Assembly: GCA_946614095.1 (NCBI GenBank)
Contig: CAMOGG010000013.1
Span: 1 to 32,641, forward strand
Length of the DNA: 32,641 nucleotides
Reading direction: 5' to 3'
DNA from: an uncultured Caryophanales bacterium
Lineage (GTDB): Bacteria > Bacillota_I > Bacilli_A > RF39 > UBA660
Made by a program: the position numbers and the translations under genes
The notes under the pieces: generated by a model
Seen by the model: only the letters and a program-made list of their open reading frames with translations
Databases searched by the model: none
Told to the model about the DNA's origin: nothing
In this document: positions 12,265 to 30,738 of the stretch, piece by piece
Numbering within the stretch: the stretch's first letter is position 1
How the letters are laid out: each line of letters opens with the position of its first letter

Positions 12265-13542
12265 ATGAAGAAACGTAAAAAGATGAAAAAAGATTCTCCT
12301 CTTTATAAAATGAAGAATAAGTTCAAAAAATGGAAGAGTTCTTCTTTTGAAGAGTCTAAAAAAGAATTTTTTCAAAAGTCAACTTTTTCTATGTTTGAAG
12401 TATTAATTTTATTATTAATTGCAATATTATTTGGTATTTTGATTGGATATATTATTACTTATCATAGAAATCCCTTGGATAAAAATGTTTCTGAAATTGT
12501 AAGTACATATCGTAATATTTTAGATGGTTATTATGGTAAGATTGATGCTAATCAGTTATCTGATGCTGCTGTAAAAGGAATGATCGATTCTTTAAAAGAT
12601 CCTTATTCTAGTTATATGAATGAGCAAAGTACTAGTAGTTTTCAAGAGAATATTGATGGGTCTTTTGTAGGAATAGGTGTAACGGTCTTATTTGATGAAG
12701 ATGGTTATCATCATATTATTGCAGTGAATGAGGATGGCCCTGCTGAAAAAGCGGGAATATTGGTTGATGATATTATTACTGTAGTAGATGGAAAGTCTGT
12801 ACATGATGTTTCTGGTGAAGAGTTTACAAAATTAATAAGAGGTAAAAAAGGTTCTACTGTTCAAATAACAGTTAAAAGAGGAGAAGAAGAGAAAACTTTT
12901 GCAGTAAAGAGAGATATCATTGAAATTCCAAGTGTTTCTAATACTGTAATTGGAACAGATGATCAAAAAGTAGGATATATTCATATTGAGTCTTTTGCTT
13001 CCAATACTTATTCTCAATTTGCAAAAGCATTAAAGAGATTAGAGAAAAAGAAAATTCAGTATTTAGTTATTGATGTTCGAGATAATCCAGGTGGCTATTT
13101 ACTTCAAACACAAGAGATTTTAAGTTTGTTTTTCCCTAAAAAAACGTTATTGTATCAAATAGAGTCTAAGAATGTGAAAAAGAAAGTTGTTTCTTTGTCC
13201 AAAGAATCTAGAGATTATCCAGTGGCAGTTCTTATTAATGGTGGAAGTGCTTCTGCTAGTGAAATTTTAGCATCTTGTTTTCAAGATAATTATAAGAATA
13301 GTATTGTTGTTGGGACAAAATCTTATGGAAAAGGTACTGTTCAAAAAGCTCAGTATTTAAGTAATGGTACTAGTATTAAGTATACGACACAAAAGTGGCT
13401 TACATCGAAAGGAAAATGGCTAGATGGAAAAGGAGTTACTCCTAATATTGTTATAGAACAAGCTGCTGAGTATTATGATAATCCTACTTATAAAACGGAT
13501 TTGCAACTTCAAGAAGCTATCAAAAAATTAAAAGAGTCTTAG
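12265..13542 (+). CDS. S41 family C-terminal processing peptidase (CtpA-like)
   Basis: TM, PDZ domain (GIGVTVLFDEDGYHHIIAVNEDGPAEKAGI), catalytic Ser in GGSASASEILA and Lys in KSYGKGTVQ. Confidence 0.95.
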   Translation: MKKRKKMKKDSPLYKMKNKFKKWKSSSFEESKKEFFQKSTFSMFEVLILLLIAILFGILIGYIITYHRNPLDKNVSEIVSTYRNILDGYYGKIDANQLSDAAVKGMIDSLKDPYSSYMNEQSTSSFQENIDGSFVGIGVTVLFDEDGYHHIIAVNEDGPAEKAGILVDDIITVVDGKSVHDVSGEEFTKLIRGKKGSTVQITVKRGEEEKTFAVKRDIIEIPSVSNTVIGTDDQKVGYIHIESFASNTYSQFAKALKRLEKKKIQYLVIDVRDNPGGYLLQTQEILSLFFPKKTLLYQIESKNVKKKVVSLSKESRDYPVAVLINGGSASASEILASCFQDNYKNSIVVGTKSYGKGTVQKAQYLSNGTSIKYTTQKWLTSKGKWLDGKGVTPNIVIEQAAEYYDNPTYKTDLQLQEAIKKLKES

Positions 13543-13553
13543 GACTCTTTTTT
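13530..13553. terminator. Bidirectional terminator formed by the 3' coding ends of two convergent genes
   Basis: AAAAGAGTC (13530-13538) TTAG GACTCTTTT (13543-13551); both stop codons lie in the hairpin. Confidence 0.9.
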
Positions 13554-14051
13554 GATACAATTTATGACTAATTGGTATTGTTCTTTTGTAGGACTACAAG
13601 TTGTTAGAACTAGTTGGTCTTTTGACTCTTTATTTACATTAATATAGCCATTCTTTTTCTCTTCCCAAATATCTTTTACTTCATAATAATAATTTTTATT
13701 ATTTAAGGTTAATATAATTTCATCTTTTTCTTGTAGTTTATCTAGTTCTTGAAAATAAGCAATTTTACCAGATCCTGAATGAGCTGCTAGAAAAACAATG
13801 CTATTTTCTGTAGGTGGAAAAATAGATTCTTTTAGAATTGTTACATGTTTTTCTACGTTATTTTCTTCACTCCCTATTTTGTATAAGTCTTCTTTTAATT
13901 TGATTTTTTTGATATTTATACGTCCTATTTTTGTTGAAGTTGTTTTATTTATTATAGTAATGTTTGGAATTATTTTTGTATACTCTTCTGTTCTTGGAAT
14001 CATTATACAAACAATACATAGTAATATTATAATGTAATACTTTTTTATCAT
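13539..14051 (-). CDS. Sortase, likely dedicated to the adjacent adhesin
   Basis: Start revised to ATG 14051 (ATGA overlap with adhesin stop). N-terminal TM, catalytic His in VFLAAHSGSG, Cys in LVLTTCSPT. Confidence 0.85.
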   Translation of the reverse strand: MIKKYYIIILLCIVCIMIPRTEEYTKIIPNITIINKTTSTKIGRINIKKIKLKEDLYKIGSEENNVEKHVTILKESIFPPTENSIVFLAAHSGSGKIAYFQELDKLQEKDEIILTLNNKNYYYEVKDIWEEKKNGYINVNKESKDQLVLTTCSPTKEQYQLVINCIKKES

Positions 14052-15469
14052 ATCAATAATAGTAAGATCTGTAGTAAGTAATACCAATTAATTGTCTGCT
14101 TTGTATAGGTATTTGGTACTGCTATTTTGTAATCTTTTAATTCTATTACTTCTTCTTCTTGGTTATCTACTGTAATATTTATTGGGTCTACTTTAGAATA
14201 GCCTTCTGTTGTATTCATTTGTATGAATTGGTATTCTCCATATGGAAGTGTAATTTCTGCAATTCCATCTTCATTGGTAGTAATGGTATCAATAATCTCT
14301 CCATTTTTATTTGTAATATTAAACATTATATTTTTTTCTTTTAAAAAACTATTATTTTCTCCATATTCTTTTTTGACTATAATCTTTTTTTCTATGACTT
14401 TGTTTTCCATAATTAGAGAAGTTTTACTATTCTCTTCACTTACGATGATTTCATATGTATTATCATCTAGAGTATAACCAATCCCTGGAGTTGTTTCTTT
14501 TAAGTAATATTTTCCAAAATTTAAATTATGAATGATAGCTTGATTATCTTTTATTGTCAAATCTTCTATCTTGTTATTATTTTGATCATAAAGTGTATAT
14601 ACTGCACCGTCTAATATTGCTTCTCCTCTTGGTGTAATAGATTGTGTATCTTTATCTATTTTGGATAATTCAAGAAATGTTTTTATTACTTTTACTTTGA
14701 TTTTTGTTTCTAATTTGTTTAAATTTCCAGTTTTGATTAGATTTTGACTATTATTTGATTGATAAAAGATATATGGTTGATTATAAATATTTTCTTGTTT
14801 ATAAATTGTAAAATCATATTTTCCTTCTTTTAATTTGTTTATCGTTAGTTTATTATTTTGTATGGCTATTCTATTATCATCTGTTTGAAAATTATTTAAT
14901 ACTTTGTTTTGATCTTCTATTACTATGGAATGATCTTCTACCATGGTATATGTTTTATTTGCTATAGATGGTAGGATATCATAACTGTTAATTAAATTAT
15001 TAATTTCATTCATTTCTGGTAGATAAGCATTAATGGCATTTCCATTTAGGGTATCTGTGAAGTAATAGTTACCTGATCCATCAGATGCTTGCCAAATCAT
15101 CATTTGAGTAATAGCGTACCATTTGATATCAGTATGATTTTTATAGCCATAACCAAAGTGGGCAATTTTTGATATTCTATCAATCTGTGTTTGTGTTAGA
15201 TTGTTAGGATTTAATGTTGACTCATAAGTTTGTGATTCATTGAAAAAACTAAATGGTTCAATGCAATAGGCGAATTCATTGGTACCGTTTTTTCGAAAAA
15301 ATCTGGCTTTTTGGTAGTATGTTGTTTTTGTTGTGTAGTTATATTTGCTCATATAGATTCCGTCTATATATTCTGCTTCATAGAAAGTTGCTGTTTCTGC
15401 TTTTACCGGTTGTATCCATGATACTAAAATACTAAAGAATGATATTAAGAAAAAACTAATCTTTTTGAT
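14048..15469 (-). CDS. Thioester-domain (Cys-Gln) surface adhesin with SpaA/Cna_B-type repeats and C-terminal sorting signal
   Basis: FAYCIEPFSF...ITQMMIWQ thioester pair; Cna_B-like DGAVYTLYDQNNNKIEDLTIKDNQAIIHNLNFGKYYLKETTPGIGYTLD; C-terminal VPNTYTKQTINWYYLLQILLLLI. Extended upstream of ATG 15352 by 39 in-frame codons encoding a signal peptide (KKISFFLISFFSILVSWIQPVKA) beginning at ATC 15469, 7 nt after AGGAGG. Confidence 0.85.
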   Translation of the reverse strand: MKKISFFLISFFSILVSWIQPVKAETATFYEAEYIDGIYMSKYNYTTKTTYYQKARFFRKNGTNEFAYCIEPFSFFNESQTYESTLNPNNLTQTQIDRISKIAHFGYGYKNHTDIKWYAITQMMIWQASDGSGNYYFTDTLNGNAINAYLPEMNEINNLINSYDILPSIANKTYTMVEDHSIVIEDQNKVLNNFQTDDNRIAIQNNKLTINKLKEGKYDFTIYKQENIYNQPYIFYQSNNSQNLIKTGNLNKLETKIKVKVIKTFLELSKIDKDTQSITPRGEAILDGAVYTLYDQNNNKIEDLTIKDNQAIIHNLNFGKYYLKETTPGIGYTLDDNTYEIIVSEENSKTSLIMENKVIEKKIIVKKEYGENNSFLKEKNIMFNITNKNGEIIDTITTNEDGIAEITLPYGEYQFIQMNTTEGYSKVDPINITVDNQEEEVIELKDYKIAVPNTYTKQTINWYYLLQILLLLI

Positions 15470-15501
15470 ATAAATCCCTCCTTTTTTTTCTTAATGAGGA
15501 A

Positions 15502-15530
15502 ATCATAACATGAAGTTTATTGGTTGACAA
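15502..15530 (-). promoter_or_regulatory. Promoter TTGTCA-N17-TATGAT for adhesin-sortase operon
   Basis: Minus strand: TTGTCA (15530-15525), 17-nt spacer, TATGAT (15507-15502). Confidence 0.75.
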
Positions 15531-15644
15531 ATCATGATTTTTTTATTTTCACGTTGTTTTTAGTAGTGATTTTTTCTTTTTCCTTTAGAAAATTATAATT
15601 TTTATGGTTAGTTTGGAAAGTTAAAAATAAAAATTCATAAAATA

Positions 15645-26451: not shown

Positions 26452-29400
26452 ATGAAAAAAATATTTATATTAATATTTACTATAGTTTCTTTCTTTTTCA
26501 TTATTACTACAATAAAAGCTAATACTGTAGTTACTCTTTTCATAGAGGGGGATAGTCGTTATGATTTGAGTGTTCAAGCTGCTAAAAAGATTAATAGTGA
26601 ACGAGAAAAAAATAATCTTGAACAGTTAACTTTGGATGAAGAACTTACTACTATAGCGACTAATCGAGCAAGAGAAATTGCTATTCATTATGATCATGTT
26701 ACTCCAATGGGTGAAGATGTAATGTCTTACTATGATGTTGATAATGAAATTATTGCTCATGTTTCTGATAATGTTATACAGGTAATAGATGAATGGATGG
26801 AAAATGATTATTCTGTATTATTCAACTCTAATTATCGGTCAATTGGAATTGGTTGCTATTCGGTTGAAGGCTATGATTATCAAACGTATTGGGTTGCTGT
26901 ATTTAAGACTTCTCAATCGGATTTTGAATTTACTTCTACTTCTTCTGTTCATGAAGAAAATGAGATTAGAGTTGATTCTAAATATATTAAGAATATTGGT
27001 GTTGATTATTTGTCTTCTACTAATACTCTTTTGATAGGGGAAACTTATTTTTCTCATATGTTATGGATAGAGAATTCTAATTTATCTGGTGTTCATACCT
27101 ATTTGAGGAATACTAGTGCTTCTTGGACTAGTAGTGATTCTAATGTTGTTTCTATTGATAGCGATTTTGGAGCTATTACTGGATTGTCTGGAGGTTCTTC
27201 TTATATTCAAGCTAAAATAGGAAATGTTTTATCGCCATTATATGAAGTTAAAGTAGAGGAAGAAGAAGTATTACCAACTGGTATTTATATTCGAACTAAT
27301 GGAAATGTTAAAACTGTGTATCTTGGAGCAGAAGAAAAAACAAGATTAGAAGCAGTTATTGTACCTAGTTATGCTACTGATAAATCTGTTGTTTGGACTA
27401 GTAGTGATGAGAGAATTGCTAAAATTGATCAAGATGGTATGATTACTCCTATTTCTTTAGGTGAAGTAACTTTTACTGCTACTACTATTAATAATATGAA
27501 AGCTACTTATCGTGTGACAATAGAAGATTTAGATGTTATTGAGATTACTGATTTGACTCTTGAGCCTACTTCTTTTACTGCTTATGTAGGGGAAGAAAAA
27601 AAGATTGATTATCATATTACTCCTTCTAATGCAACTTCATCTACTATTACTTTTACTAGTAGTGATTCTAATGTTGCTATAGTTGATTCTACTGGAATGG
27701 TTACAGCTATTGGTCCTGGGACTGCTAGAATTATTGCTTCTTTTAAAAATGGGGTTACAGCAGTTTGTGTGATTACAGTTTTAGAGTCGGAAATTAAAGT
27801 AGAAAGTATTACTTTTGCGGATCAAGAGAGAACGATAGAGTTAGGAGATACTTATACATTGGAACCAATTATTCGACCACAGAATGCAAGTAATAAGACT
27901 GTTCAATGGTCTGTTTCGAAAGAGGGTATTTTAACAGTTGATAAAAATGGTTTGATTTCTACGATTGCTATTGGGGATGTTGTTGTTACAGCAAGCGTTG
28001 GTGATTTAAGTGGTCAAATTACTATTCATGTAATAGAACCTAGTATAAAGCCTACTGGTGTGGAATTACATTCTCCTAAATCAGAAATAGAGGTTGGAGA
28101 AGTCTTAGAATTAGAGACTGTCATTACTCCAAGTACAGTTTCTAATACATCTCTTTCTTGGAAAAGTAGTAATTCCAGTTTAGCTAGTATTAGTCAGGAT
28201 GGAAAAGTAACGGGACTAATGACAGGAACTGTTCAAATTACAGTTACTACAGTTAATAATCTTAGCGATTCTGTTGAAATTAAAATTATTGATAAAAAGG
28301 CTGAGGTTAATAATATTACAATTAATGATCATGAGGAAAATTTACTAGAAGGAAATCAAATGACTTTAATTGCTAATATTACTCCAGTTGATGCTAATAA
28401 TCAGTCATTAGTTTGGACGAGTAGTGATGAGTCTATTGCAACTGTTTCCAATGGGGTGGTTACGGCTTTAAAAGATGGTACTGTAACGATTACTGTAACT
28501 TCAAAAAATGGGGTTTCTACTTCTACTACGATTCATGTTGTATCGTCTTCTTTGGAAGTTAGTACTGTGTCATTTGACCAGACTATTCTTCATATCAACA
28601 TTGGAGATTCTTACTGTCTTCAGGCTACAATATATCCTGAAAATGCTACCATAAAGACGTTAAGTTGGGAAAGTTCTTCCCCATCTGTTGCGACAGTAGA
28701 TGATTCTGGAAAAATTACAGCTTATCAAGTTGGAACTACAACAATTACTGCTACTTCAACTAATGGAAAAGAAGCACGCTGTGTTGTTGAGGTTTTGGAT
28801 CCTAGTTTGGTTCCTACTGGTGTAGTATTGAATAAAACGAAAGAAACGGTATATGTAGGGGATTATCTTTCTTTAATTGCTGAAATAAAGCCAAAAGGTG
28901 TTGTTAATCAGAATATTGAATGGACTTCTAGTAATGAAGAAGTTGCGACTGTTGATAAGGGAAGGGTTCATGCGATTAAAGAAGGAACTACAACAATTAC
29001 TGCTAGTGCTTATAATGGAGTTTCTGAAAGTTGTACTATCATTGTTAAGATGCCTGAAATTATTTTAGAGGATAATGAAATTGTTCTTGAAGTAGGTAAG
29101 TCTCATTTATTAGAGGTTACAACAAATCCTAAAGATGTTTCAAAGATTTTTTATAGTGATCAGGAGGAAATTGCAGTAGTTGATAGTGAAGGTAATATAA
29201 CTGCTATTTCTCCTGGAGATGCTTCTATTACTATAGAAACTTCAAATGGAGACAAAGCTATTTGTCATGTTATTGTTATTCAAAGACCTACAAAAATTAT
29301 TCCTTCTTCTGAAGATATAACGTTAGAAGAGGGAGAAGAGGAGCAGATTAGAATAACTTTTGAACCTGCTAATACTAGTGAAACTGCTTTGGTTTGGGAA

Positions 29401-30738
29401 AGTAGTAATCCTAAGATTGCAACTGTTGCTAATGGTTTCATTAAAGGAATTGCTGCTGGTACTGCTATGATTACTGTAACTGGAGTTAATCGTATTAGTG
29501 CACAAATTATGGTTACTGTTGTTCCTAAGGAAGGTGTTGAGGTTGAACCAACGGGAATTCAATTAAATCGAAATGAACTATCATTGAAAGTAGGTTCTTA
29601 TTCTTATCTTGATGGAGAGGTTTTGCCAAGTAATGCTACCAATAAGGCTGTTACTTGGGAAAGTAGTGATTCTCGTATTGCAAGTGTGGATAAAACGGGT
29701 AAAGTTATTGGTATTTCTGTTGGTGAAGCTATTATTACTGCAAAAACGATTAATGATAAAAAGGCAGAATGTCGAGTAACTATTGTTCCTAATCCTCAAA
29801 GTTTTTCAGTGTTATATATGACACATGTAGAAGATTATGGAGATCAGAAGTATGTAAAAAATGGGGCAATGTCTGGAACAAGTGGGCAATCTAAGAGATT
29901 AGAAGCTATTCGAATCAAATTAGAAAATCAGCCATATACTGGTAATATTGAATATCGAACTCATGTACAAGATATCGGTTGGATGAGTTATGTAAAAAAT
30001 GGAGCCATGTCTGGAACGAGTGGAAAAGCAAAAAGACTAGAAGCCATTCAAATTAGACTTACTGGTAAACTTGGTGAAAAGTATGATGTTTACTATAGAG
30101 TGCATGCCCAAGATGTAGGCTGGATGAACTGGGCTAAAAATGATGAGATGGCAGGAACAGCTGGATATGGAAGACGATTAGAAGGTATTGAGATAGTTGT
30201 GGTGGAAAAAGGACAAAATCCACCTAGTAGAAGTAATATTAAAAGTAATAAAGCATTCTTACAAAAGCAAATTTCTTATACTACGCATGTTCAAGATATT
30301 GGATGGCAAAGTGAAGTAGCAGATGGAACAATGTCAGGTACAAGTGGACAATCTAAGAGATTAGAAGGAATTAAAATCAAATTGTATAAACCTACTTATA
30401 ATGGTAGTATACGTTATAAAACTCATGTTCAAGATATTGGCTGGCAAAGCTTTGTCTATGATGGTGCAATGTCAGGAACCAGTGGGCAATCAAAGAGACT
30501 AGAAGCTATTCGAGTTGAATTAACAGGTTCTATGGCAAGTCACTATGATATTTATTACCGAGTACATGCTGAAAACTTTGGTTGGATGAATTGGGCCAAG
30601 AATGGGGAGAGTGCAGGTACTGCTCATTATAGTTATCGATTAGAGGGAATCGAAATTGTTTTAGTTGATAAAGGAGAAGCTCCACCAACAAGAACCAATA
30701 TAAAAACTAGTAAGGCATTTATAGATAAAAACTTGTAA
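26452..30738 (+). CDS. Secreted surface protein: signal peptide, CAP/SCP domain, about 11 BIG2 Ig-like modules, six ChW repeats
   Basis: Signal MKKIFILIFTIVSFFFIITTIKA; CAP-like AAKKINSEREKNNLEQLTLDEELTTIATNRAREIAIHYDHVTPMGED; 11 W(T/E)SSD..IA.VD..G.VT.I..G...IT-type modules; six HVQDIGW...AMSGTSGQSKRLEAI ChW repeats. Confidence 0.92.
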   Translation: MKKIFILIFTIVSFFFIITTIKANTVVTLFIEGDSRYDLSVQAAKKINSEREKNNLEQLTLDEELTTIATNRAREIAIHYDHVTPMGEDVMSYYDVDNEIIAHVSDNVIQVIDEWMENDYSVLFNSNYRSIGIGCYSVEGYDYQTYWVAVFKTSQSDFEFTSTSSVHEENEIRVDSKYIKNIGVDYLSSTNTLLIGETYFSHMLWIENSNLSGVHTYLRNTSASWTSSDSNVVSIDSDFGAITGLSGGSSYIQAKIGNVLSPLYEVKVEEEEVLPTGIYIRTNGNVKTVYLGAEEKTRLEAVIVPSYATDKSVVWTSSDERIAKIDQDGMITPISLGEVTFTATTINNMKATYRVTIEDLDVIEITDLTLEPTSFTAYVGEEKKIDYHITPSNATSSTITFTSSDSNVAIVDSTGMVTAIGPGTARIIASFKNGVTAVCVITVLESEIKVESITFADQERTIELGDTYTLEPIIRPQNASNKTVQWSVSKEGILTVDKNGLISTIAIGDVVVTASVGDLSGQITIHVIEPSIKPTGVELHSPKSEIEVGEVLELETVITPSTVSNTSLSWKSSNSSLASISQDGKVTGLMTGTVQITVTTVNNLSDSVEIKIIDKKAEVNNITINDHEENLLEGNQMTLIANITPVDANNQSLVWTSSDESIATVSNGVVTALKDGTVTITVTSKNGVSTSTTIHVVSSSLEVSTVSFDQTILHINIGDSYCLQATIYPENATIKTLSWESSSPSVATVDDSGKITAYQVGTTTITATSTNGKEARCVVEVLDPSLVPTGVVLNKTKETVYVGDYLSLIAEIKPKGVVNQNIEWTSSNEEVATVDKGRVHAIKEGTTTITASAYNGVSESCTIIVKMPEIILEDNEIVLEVGKSHLLEVTTNPKDVSKIFYSDQEEIAVVDSEGNITAISPGDASITIETSNGDKAICHVIVIQRPTKIIPSSEDITLEEGEEEQIRITFEPANTSETALVWESSNPKIATVANGFIKGIAAGTAMITVTGVNRISAQIMVTVVPKEGVEVEPTGIQLNRNELSLKVGSYSYLDGEVLPSNATNKAVTWESSDSRIASVDKTGKVIGISVGEAIITAKTINDKKAECRVTIVPNPQSFSVLYMTHVEDYGDQKYVKNGAMSGTSGQSKRLEAIRIKLENQPYTGNIEYRTHVQDIGWMSYVKNGAMSGTSGKAKRLEAIQIRLTGKLGEKYDVYYRVHAQDVGWMNWAKNDEMAGTAGYGRRLEGIEIVVVEKGQNPPSRSNIKSNKAFLQKQISYTTHVQDIGWQSEVADGTMSGTSGQSKRLEGIKIKLYKPTYNGSIRYKTHVQDIGWQSFVYDGAMSGTSGQSKRLEAIRVELTGSMASHYDIYYRVHAENFGWMNWAKNGESAGTAHYSYRLEGIEIVLVDKGEAPPTRTNIKTSKAFIDKNL
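29809..30735 (+). repeat. Six ChW repeats arranged as two three-unit blocks
   Basis: Unit pattern THVQDIGW..(V)KNGAMSGTSGQSKRLEAI; third unit of each block is the variant YRVHAxxxGWMNWAKN...AGTA...RLEGIEIV(V/L)V(E/D)KG..PP.R.NIK..KAF. Confidence 0.9.

Follow-up and report, generated by a model that had tools for sequence, protein, structure and literature searches.

A conserved near-cognate start codon at the head of an adhesin-sortase operon in uncultured Bacilli

How is an adhesin gene translated when its reading frame opens with an isoleucine codon? In the window, the whole stretch of 32,641 nucleotides that was analysed, a gene on the minus strand identified as an adhesin by Pfam, structure prediction and sorting motif (14048..15469) begins with ATC at 15469-15467, and the 473-codon frame opened by this codon contains no ATG before the annotated one at 15352. 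Conserved near-cognate starts known experimentally in bacteria are few and lie mostly in regulators (infC, pcnB, sigR, ccpN and cvfC1). An earlier note, made from the letters alone, had pointed to the ATC as a possible start, and a check of the minus strand bore out its particulars: the ATC follows a Shine-Dalgarno (SD) run, AAGGAGG at 15483-15477, that ends 7 nt before it, an in-frame TAA stands 5' of it at 15493-15491, ATG, GTG and TTG are absent between TAA and ATC, and from the ATC to the ATG at 15352 the frame runs through 39 sense codons. Translation from the ATC encodes the Sec signal peptide that had been claimed, IKKISFFLISFFSILVSWIQPVKA, whose 24 codons (15398..15469, minus strand) are accessible only from this codon and lie in register with orthologs that start with M. 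Gene callers restricted to ATG, GTG and TTG would miss this signal peptide, and hence the secretion of the adhesin.

The promoter described for the gene, TTGTCA-N17-TATGAT, was likewise found on the minus strand. The -35 element TTGTCA, with AT just 5' of it, occupies 15530-15525 and is conserved in orthologs, and after a 17-nt spacer the -10 element TATGAT follows at 15507-15502, preceded by an extended-10 TG at 15510-15509; most orthologs have TGnTAnnnT at the -10 position. ATTTG at the -35 (15526-15532) is widely kept: most orthologs have it, some deviate by one base, and the remainder of the -35 and -10 elements is variable; ATTTG may be a regulator site besides a promoter element. Promoter spacing places the predicted transcription start at an A, position 15495 of the minus strand, 7 nt past the -10. 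This base, a purine (A or G) in almost every intact copy, is also the first base of an inverted repeat that is considered below.

The adhesin protein is present in all 39 same-genus genomes, and its 5' end is readable in 38 of them. The earlier note had looked to relatives for an ATG at this codon, and an answer of two parts was obtained: ATG stands there in seven of the 38, and ATA, ATC or ATT (ATH) in 31, at the identical codon and 6-9 nt past GGAGG. Together with one named metagenome-assembled genome (L178), these 31 make 32 ATH orthologs (ATA 19, ATC 8, ATT 5). When 98 orthologs were placed on a tree, one clade of 38 rows took in all 32, and within it the third base of the start was exchanged among A, C and T at least 12 times and changed to or from G only twice. 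It seems that selection keeps "not AUG" more than any particular Ile codon. Orthologs from other genera begin in this register as well, with ATG or TTG. Since orthologs carry AUH, ATG or TTG in register, this codon is the true start and the lack of AUG there is no defect peculiar to one strain, and since other genera use TTG there, weak starts exist in several separate lineages of the adhesin gene. Ortholog comparison indicates that a weak start codon is maintained by evolution in the adhesin gene. Dozens of species have thus retained a near-cognate start in a surface-adhesin operon, with AUG and UUG relatives as natural controls, and such conservation suggests that selection can favour weak start codons as a limit on the output of a surface protein.

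Of 36 same-genus genomes, 34 contained the start-region element a single time, always at the adhesin gene, and the reversed control gave zero matches, a distribution beyond what chance would give. Among longer paralogs with a thioester domain, those with a start that was read have ATG and lack the element. The relatives that carry names are uncultured Bacilli known from metagenome-assembled genomes of gut samples (ruminant, rabbit and others), with the more distant Candidatus Faecimonas gallistercoris among them, and the bacterium of the window probably belongs with the RF39-like Bacilli. TTG at the same start, with a GGAGGG SD and an intact inverted repeat, was observed in other genera (L084, L086, L089, L090, L151, L158 and others). 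In one genus member, L052 (G031:C30:1757-3198), the adhesin frame is broken by an internal stop and a frameshift, and the ATA start and inverted repeat are kept.

Weak starts in this gene co-occur with extended SDs. In the window copy the extended SD, AAGGAGGGAT, occupies 15474..15483 of the minus strand. The extended form GGAGGGAT preceded 31 of 32 AUH and 10 of 12 UUG starts, that is 41 of 44 weak starts, vs 1 of 53 AUG starts. The association of weak start, SD type and inverted repeat represents few independent events, as each of the three changes only about seven times on the tree. AUG orthologs mostly have GGAGGAA. With the 16S tail GGAUCACCUCCUUUCUA, taken from other families of the class (same-genus genomes have partial 16S genes), the mean SD duplex energy was -15.6 kcal/mol for AUH, -15.0 for UUG and -12.8 for AUG orthologs; with the same tail, the median of the best SDs of other ORFs was -11.2 kcal/mol, and the strongest 5% lay below -15.8 kcal/mol. 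If an A of the anti-SD bulges out, the GAU of AAGGAGGGAU can form further pairs. The 5' arm of the inverted repeat was considered as a further SD extension and rejected, since the length of its A-run is too variable among orthologs. It has been reported that stronger SDs often compensate for weak starts (PMC5622118).

A positive control for near-cognate starts is provided by infC, which in the same genus (L101-L126) starts with ATC, but with ATA in the genome of the window (L119, contig C52) and in G022, and is preceded by ATGGAGGTG / GGAGGTG. Among 656 ORFs in 744 kb of this genome and one relative, 5'-terminal GGAGG-AUH starts were found at the adhesin gene and infC only, and the remaining GGAGG-AUH matches lay inside ORFs, behind canonical starts. 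A lineage-wide relaxation of start codons was rejected, as infC alone shares the feature in these 744 kb. No unusual initiator tRNA was seen on the sampled contigs, a partial coverage in which all Met anticodons are CAU.

It is established that IF3 destabilises initiation at near-cognate codons and that infC and sigR are so controlled (PMC5472188, PMC10158994). Like the adhesin start, the infC start is a conserved AUU, AUC or AUA after a strong SD, and infC of the same genomes has AUC or AUA; the two differ in that the adhesin product forms no autoregulatory loop and in that the inverted repeat encloses the adhesin start. In Streptomyces sigR, a GTC or GTT start is repressed by IF3, is non-canonical genus-wide with a free third base (GTC 32, GTT 2), and has an extended SD (PMC5472188), but the codon is GUC instead of AUH, the product is a sigma factor, and there is no operon coupling to a sortase. 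The portion of the S. aureus account drawn on here (PMC13009471) describes ccpN (AUA) and cvfC1 (AUU) as having conserved near-cognate starts and extended, start-proximal SDs, with an output measured in S. aureus at about 10% of that of AUG and a conservation demonstrated within staphylococci and with B. subtilis. These two genes share with the adhesin the conserved near-cognate start and the extended SD, but encode regulatory or small proteins instead of a secreted adhesin, and an inverted repeat at them was not found in that portion of the account. Judged by these sequence features, the adhesin start is a conserved near-cognate start of the infC, sigR and ccpN kind. New here are the setting in an adhesin-sortase operon and the inverted repeat, for which the accounts consulted on infC, sigR and ccpN, the last to the extent of the portion just named, gave no counterpart.

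As the best explanation we regard translational attenuation at the near-cognate AUC, against which IF3 would discriminate in the manner of infC, sigR and S. aureus ccpN/cvfC1; the comparative evidence makes this quite probable. The AUC would be decoded by ordinary fMet-tRNA with a third-base mismatch; the strong SD would enable initiation, and the poor codon, disfavoured by IF3, would hold it inefficient, leaving adhesin output low and varying with IF3 or growth state. Control of the adhesin start by IF3 is what we infer from the analogy with these systems. Immediately downstream lies a sortase gene (13539..14051, minus strand; Pfam Sortase match, and NCBIfam TIGR01076 above cut-off). Because its ATG and the adhesin stop share bases (ATGA, 14051-14048) and an SD of its own is absent, its output would also be set by the weak adhesin start through translational coupling, and the weak start probably meters adhesin and sortase alike. 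Most orthologs have the overlapping sortase start, and many place it inside the adhesin end. The weak start thus most likely serves a low or adjustable translation of adhesin and sortase, as far as sequence comparison can tell, and the natural series of AUA, AUC, AUU, UUG and AUG orthologs is a ready set for tests of start-codon control.

The inverted repeat around the start raises the question whether RNA structure takes part in this control. The predicted mRNA begins with its 5' arm, ATTAAGAAAAAA (15484..15495, minus strand), recognised from orthologs and the window fold, and its 3' arm, TTTTTTCTTAAT (15444..15455, minus strand), recognised from orthologs, lies within adhesin codons 5-9, so that a perfect repeat of 10-12 bp extends from the predicted transcription start, around ribosome-binding site and start codon, into the coding sequence. 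The repeat is intact in all 44 weak-start orthologs vs 35 of 54 AUG orthologs, and its best stem has a mean of 11.1 bp vs 6.6 bp in shuffled sequences. In the 3' arm the codon pair TTC TTA is present in 44 of 44 weak-start orthologs, TTC being 24% of the other Phe codons in these genes. The outer pair is A-U in 41 cases, G-U in 26, G-C in 12 and never A-C, a pattern that lends mild support to RNA pairing. Within the attenuation mechanism the repeat might, less surely, be a 5'-terminal AU stem-loop that gates or stabilises the initiation region or protects the mRNA. As a tentative proposal, repeat, extended SD and near-cognate codon could together be a dedicated 5'-terminal RNA gate on the adhesin-sortase operon, of a kind not described before, in which the codon would be an evolved part, free among AUA, AUC and AUU and rarely reverting to AUG.

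The alternative that survives best, possible in our judgement but rather unlikely, places control mainly in the repeat, as a bistable 5'-terminal RNA gate that the weak codon only tunes. Here UUUUUCUU would have two possible partners, the 5' arm, with the SD left in the loop, and AAGGAGG, with the SD hidden, and temperature, a ligand or a factor would be the trigger. Both folds are among the predicted structures, and in the second the same 3' arm hides the SD. The alternative also draws on the arms starting at the predicted transcription start, on their integrity in every weak-start ortholog, on the outer pair that is never A-C, and on a repeat that is essentially single-copy per genome, as a cis element would be. 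Against this, fold stability of the window copy is not exceptional, its energy being no better than that of shuffles (z = -0.31), the core pairs are near-invariant with scant covariation, the G-C cases represent one change, and no Rfam match was found for the inverted-repeat region.

It is also conceivable, and less probable than an RNA gate, that the repeat is a DNA operator bound by a regulator of its own, in which case the weak start would be a separate trait. The position of the repeat, straddling the start region of the promoter, is operator-like. Searched for without the SD, however, the repeat occurs at the adhesin gene alone in 37 of 38 matching same-genus genomes, with one extra site in one genome (the repeat reads identically on both strands, so each site was listed twice), the variation of its outer bases is mostly one-sided (A/G vs a fixed T), and no regulator gene was identified nearby. 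A regulon-wide operator was rejected, since the repeat is confined to the adhesin gene in these 37 genomes.

Far less likely is initiation at an ATG elsewhere in the frame, upstream or at 15352. Of the first 30 orthologs, about one in three has an in-frame ATG 10-13 codons 5' of the AUH position, but these upstream ATGs coincide with the -10 element, i.e. lie 5' of the predicted mRNA start, and a stop intervenes in the window copy and in many orthologs. The ATG at 15352 (15350..15352, minus strand), the first in the frame, lacks an SD and lies within the mature protein, as the earlier note had held; a start there would lose the signal peptide together with F29, E31, E33, Y34, I35 and I38, which ortholog alignment shows to be conserved upstream of it. 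Moreover, ATG and TTG orthologs begin at the AUH position, which argues against both alternatives. Among the three readings offered originally, infC-type initiation at the ATC is strongly supported, and the other two, a single ATG-to-ATC change that silenced the adhesin in this strain or a base-call error, suggested by a gene otherwise intact with the canonical ATG absent, are refuted by the genus-wide AUH with its repeated A/C/T exchange and by the intact long ORFs of the 31 of 38 readable same-genus copies, and have almost no chance of being right.

Attenuation at the AUC would act on a product that we assign to the class II thioester-domain (TIE) adhesins. Pfam places a thioester domain (TED, PF08341, 44.9 bits vs a cut-off of 22) at aa 67-142 and SpaA prealbumin-like matches at aa 284-357 in two stretches, and the C-terminus has a VPNT sorting motif (14119-14108, minus strand), matched by [VI]P[ND]T in 71 of 79 readable ortholog C-termini. 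The [YFL]C motif of thioester domains (PMC4450167) and the motifs of class II TIE proteins (PMC6194298) have been defined previously. Cys69, in a YCIE motif (15263..15265, minus strand), is the candidate thioester residue, and Gln242 (14744..14746, minus strand) its candidate partner, both invariant in A1 and A2. The TQxxPhiW helix motif is represented by TQMMIW at residues 121-126, with T121, Q122, I125 and W126 invariant. AlphaFold2 on 18 orthologs reached a pLDDT of 85, and its model has an N-terminal helix at 2-17. Gln242 opens strand 242-247 of the model, and the spacing of the candidate Cys-Gln pair is 173 vs 171 in SaTIE. The nearest solved structures are BaTIE 6fwv, the best Foldseek match, and SaTIE-TED 6fx6 (TM-score 0.65 on target); whole-chain superposition is poor because of domain hinges. 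While SaTIE and BaTIE (PMC6194298) belong to the same protein family, the adhesin described here has fewer stalk domains. In the literature consulted on class II TIE adhesins (PMC4450167 and PMC6194298 among it), we found no description of a weak start.

Elsewhere in the window, 26452-30738 encodes a secreted protein of 1428 aa whose N-terminus is CAP-like; it has numerous Ig-like repeats and, at the C-terminus, H-V-Q-D-[IV]-G-W repeats. The latter presumably resemble clostridial hydrophobic W (ChW) repeats.
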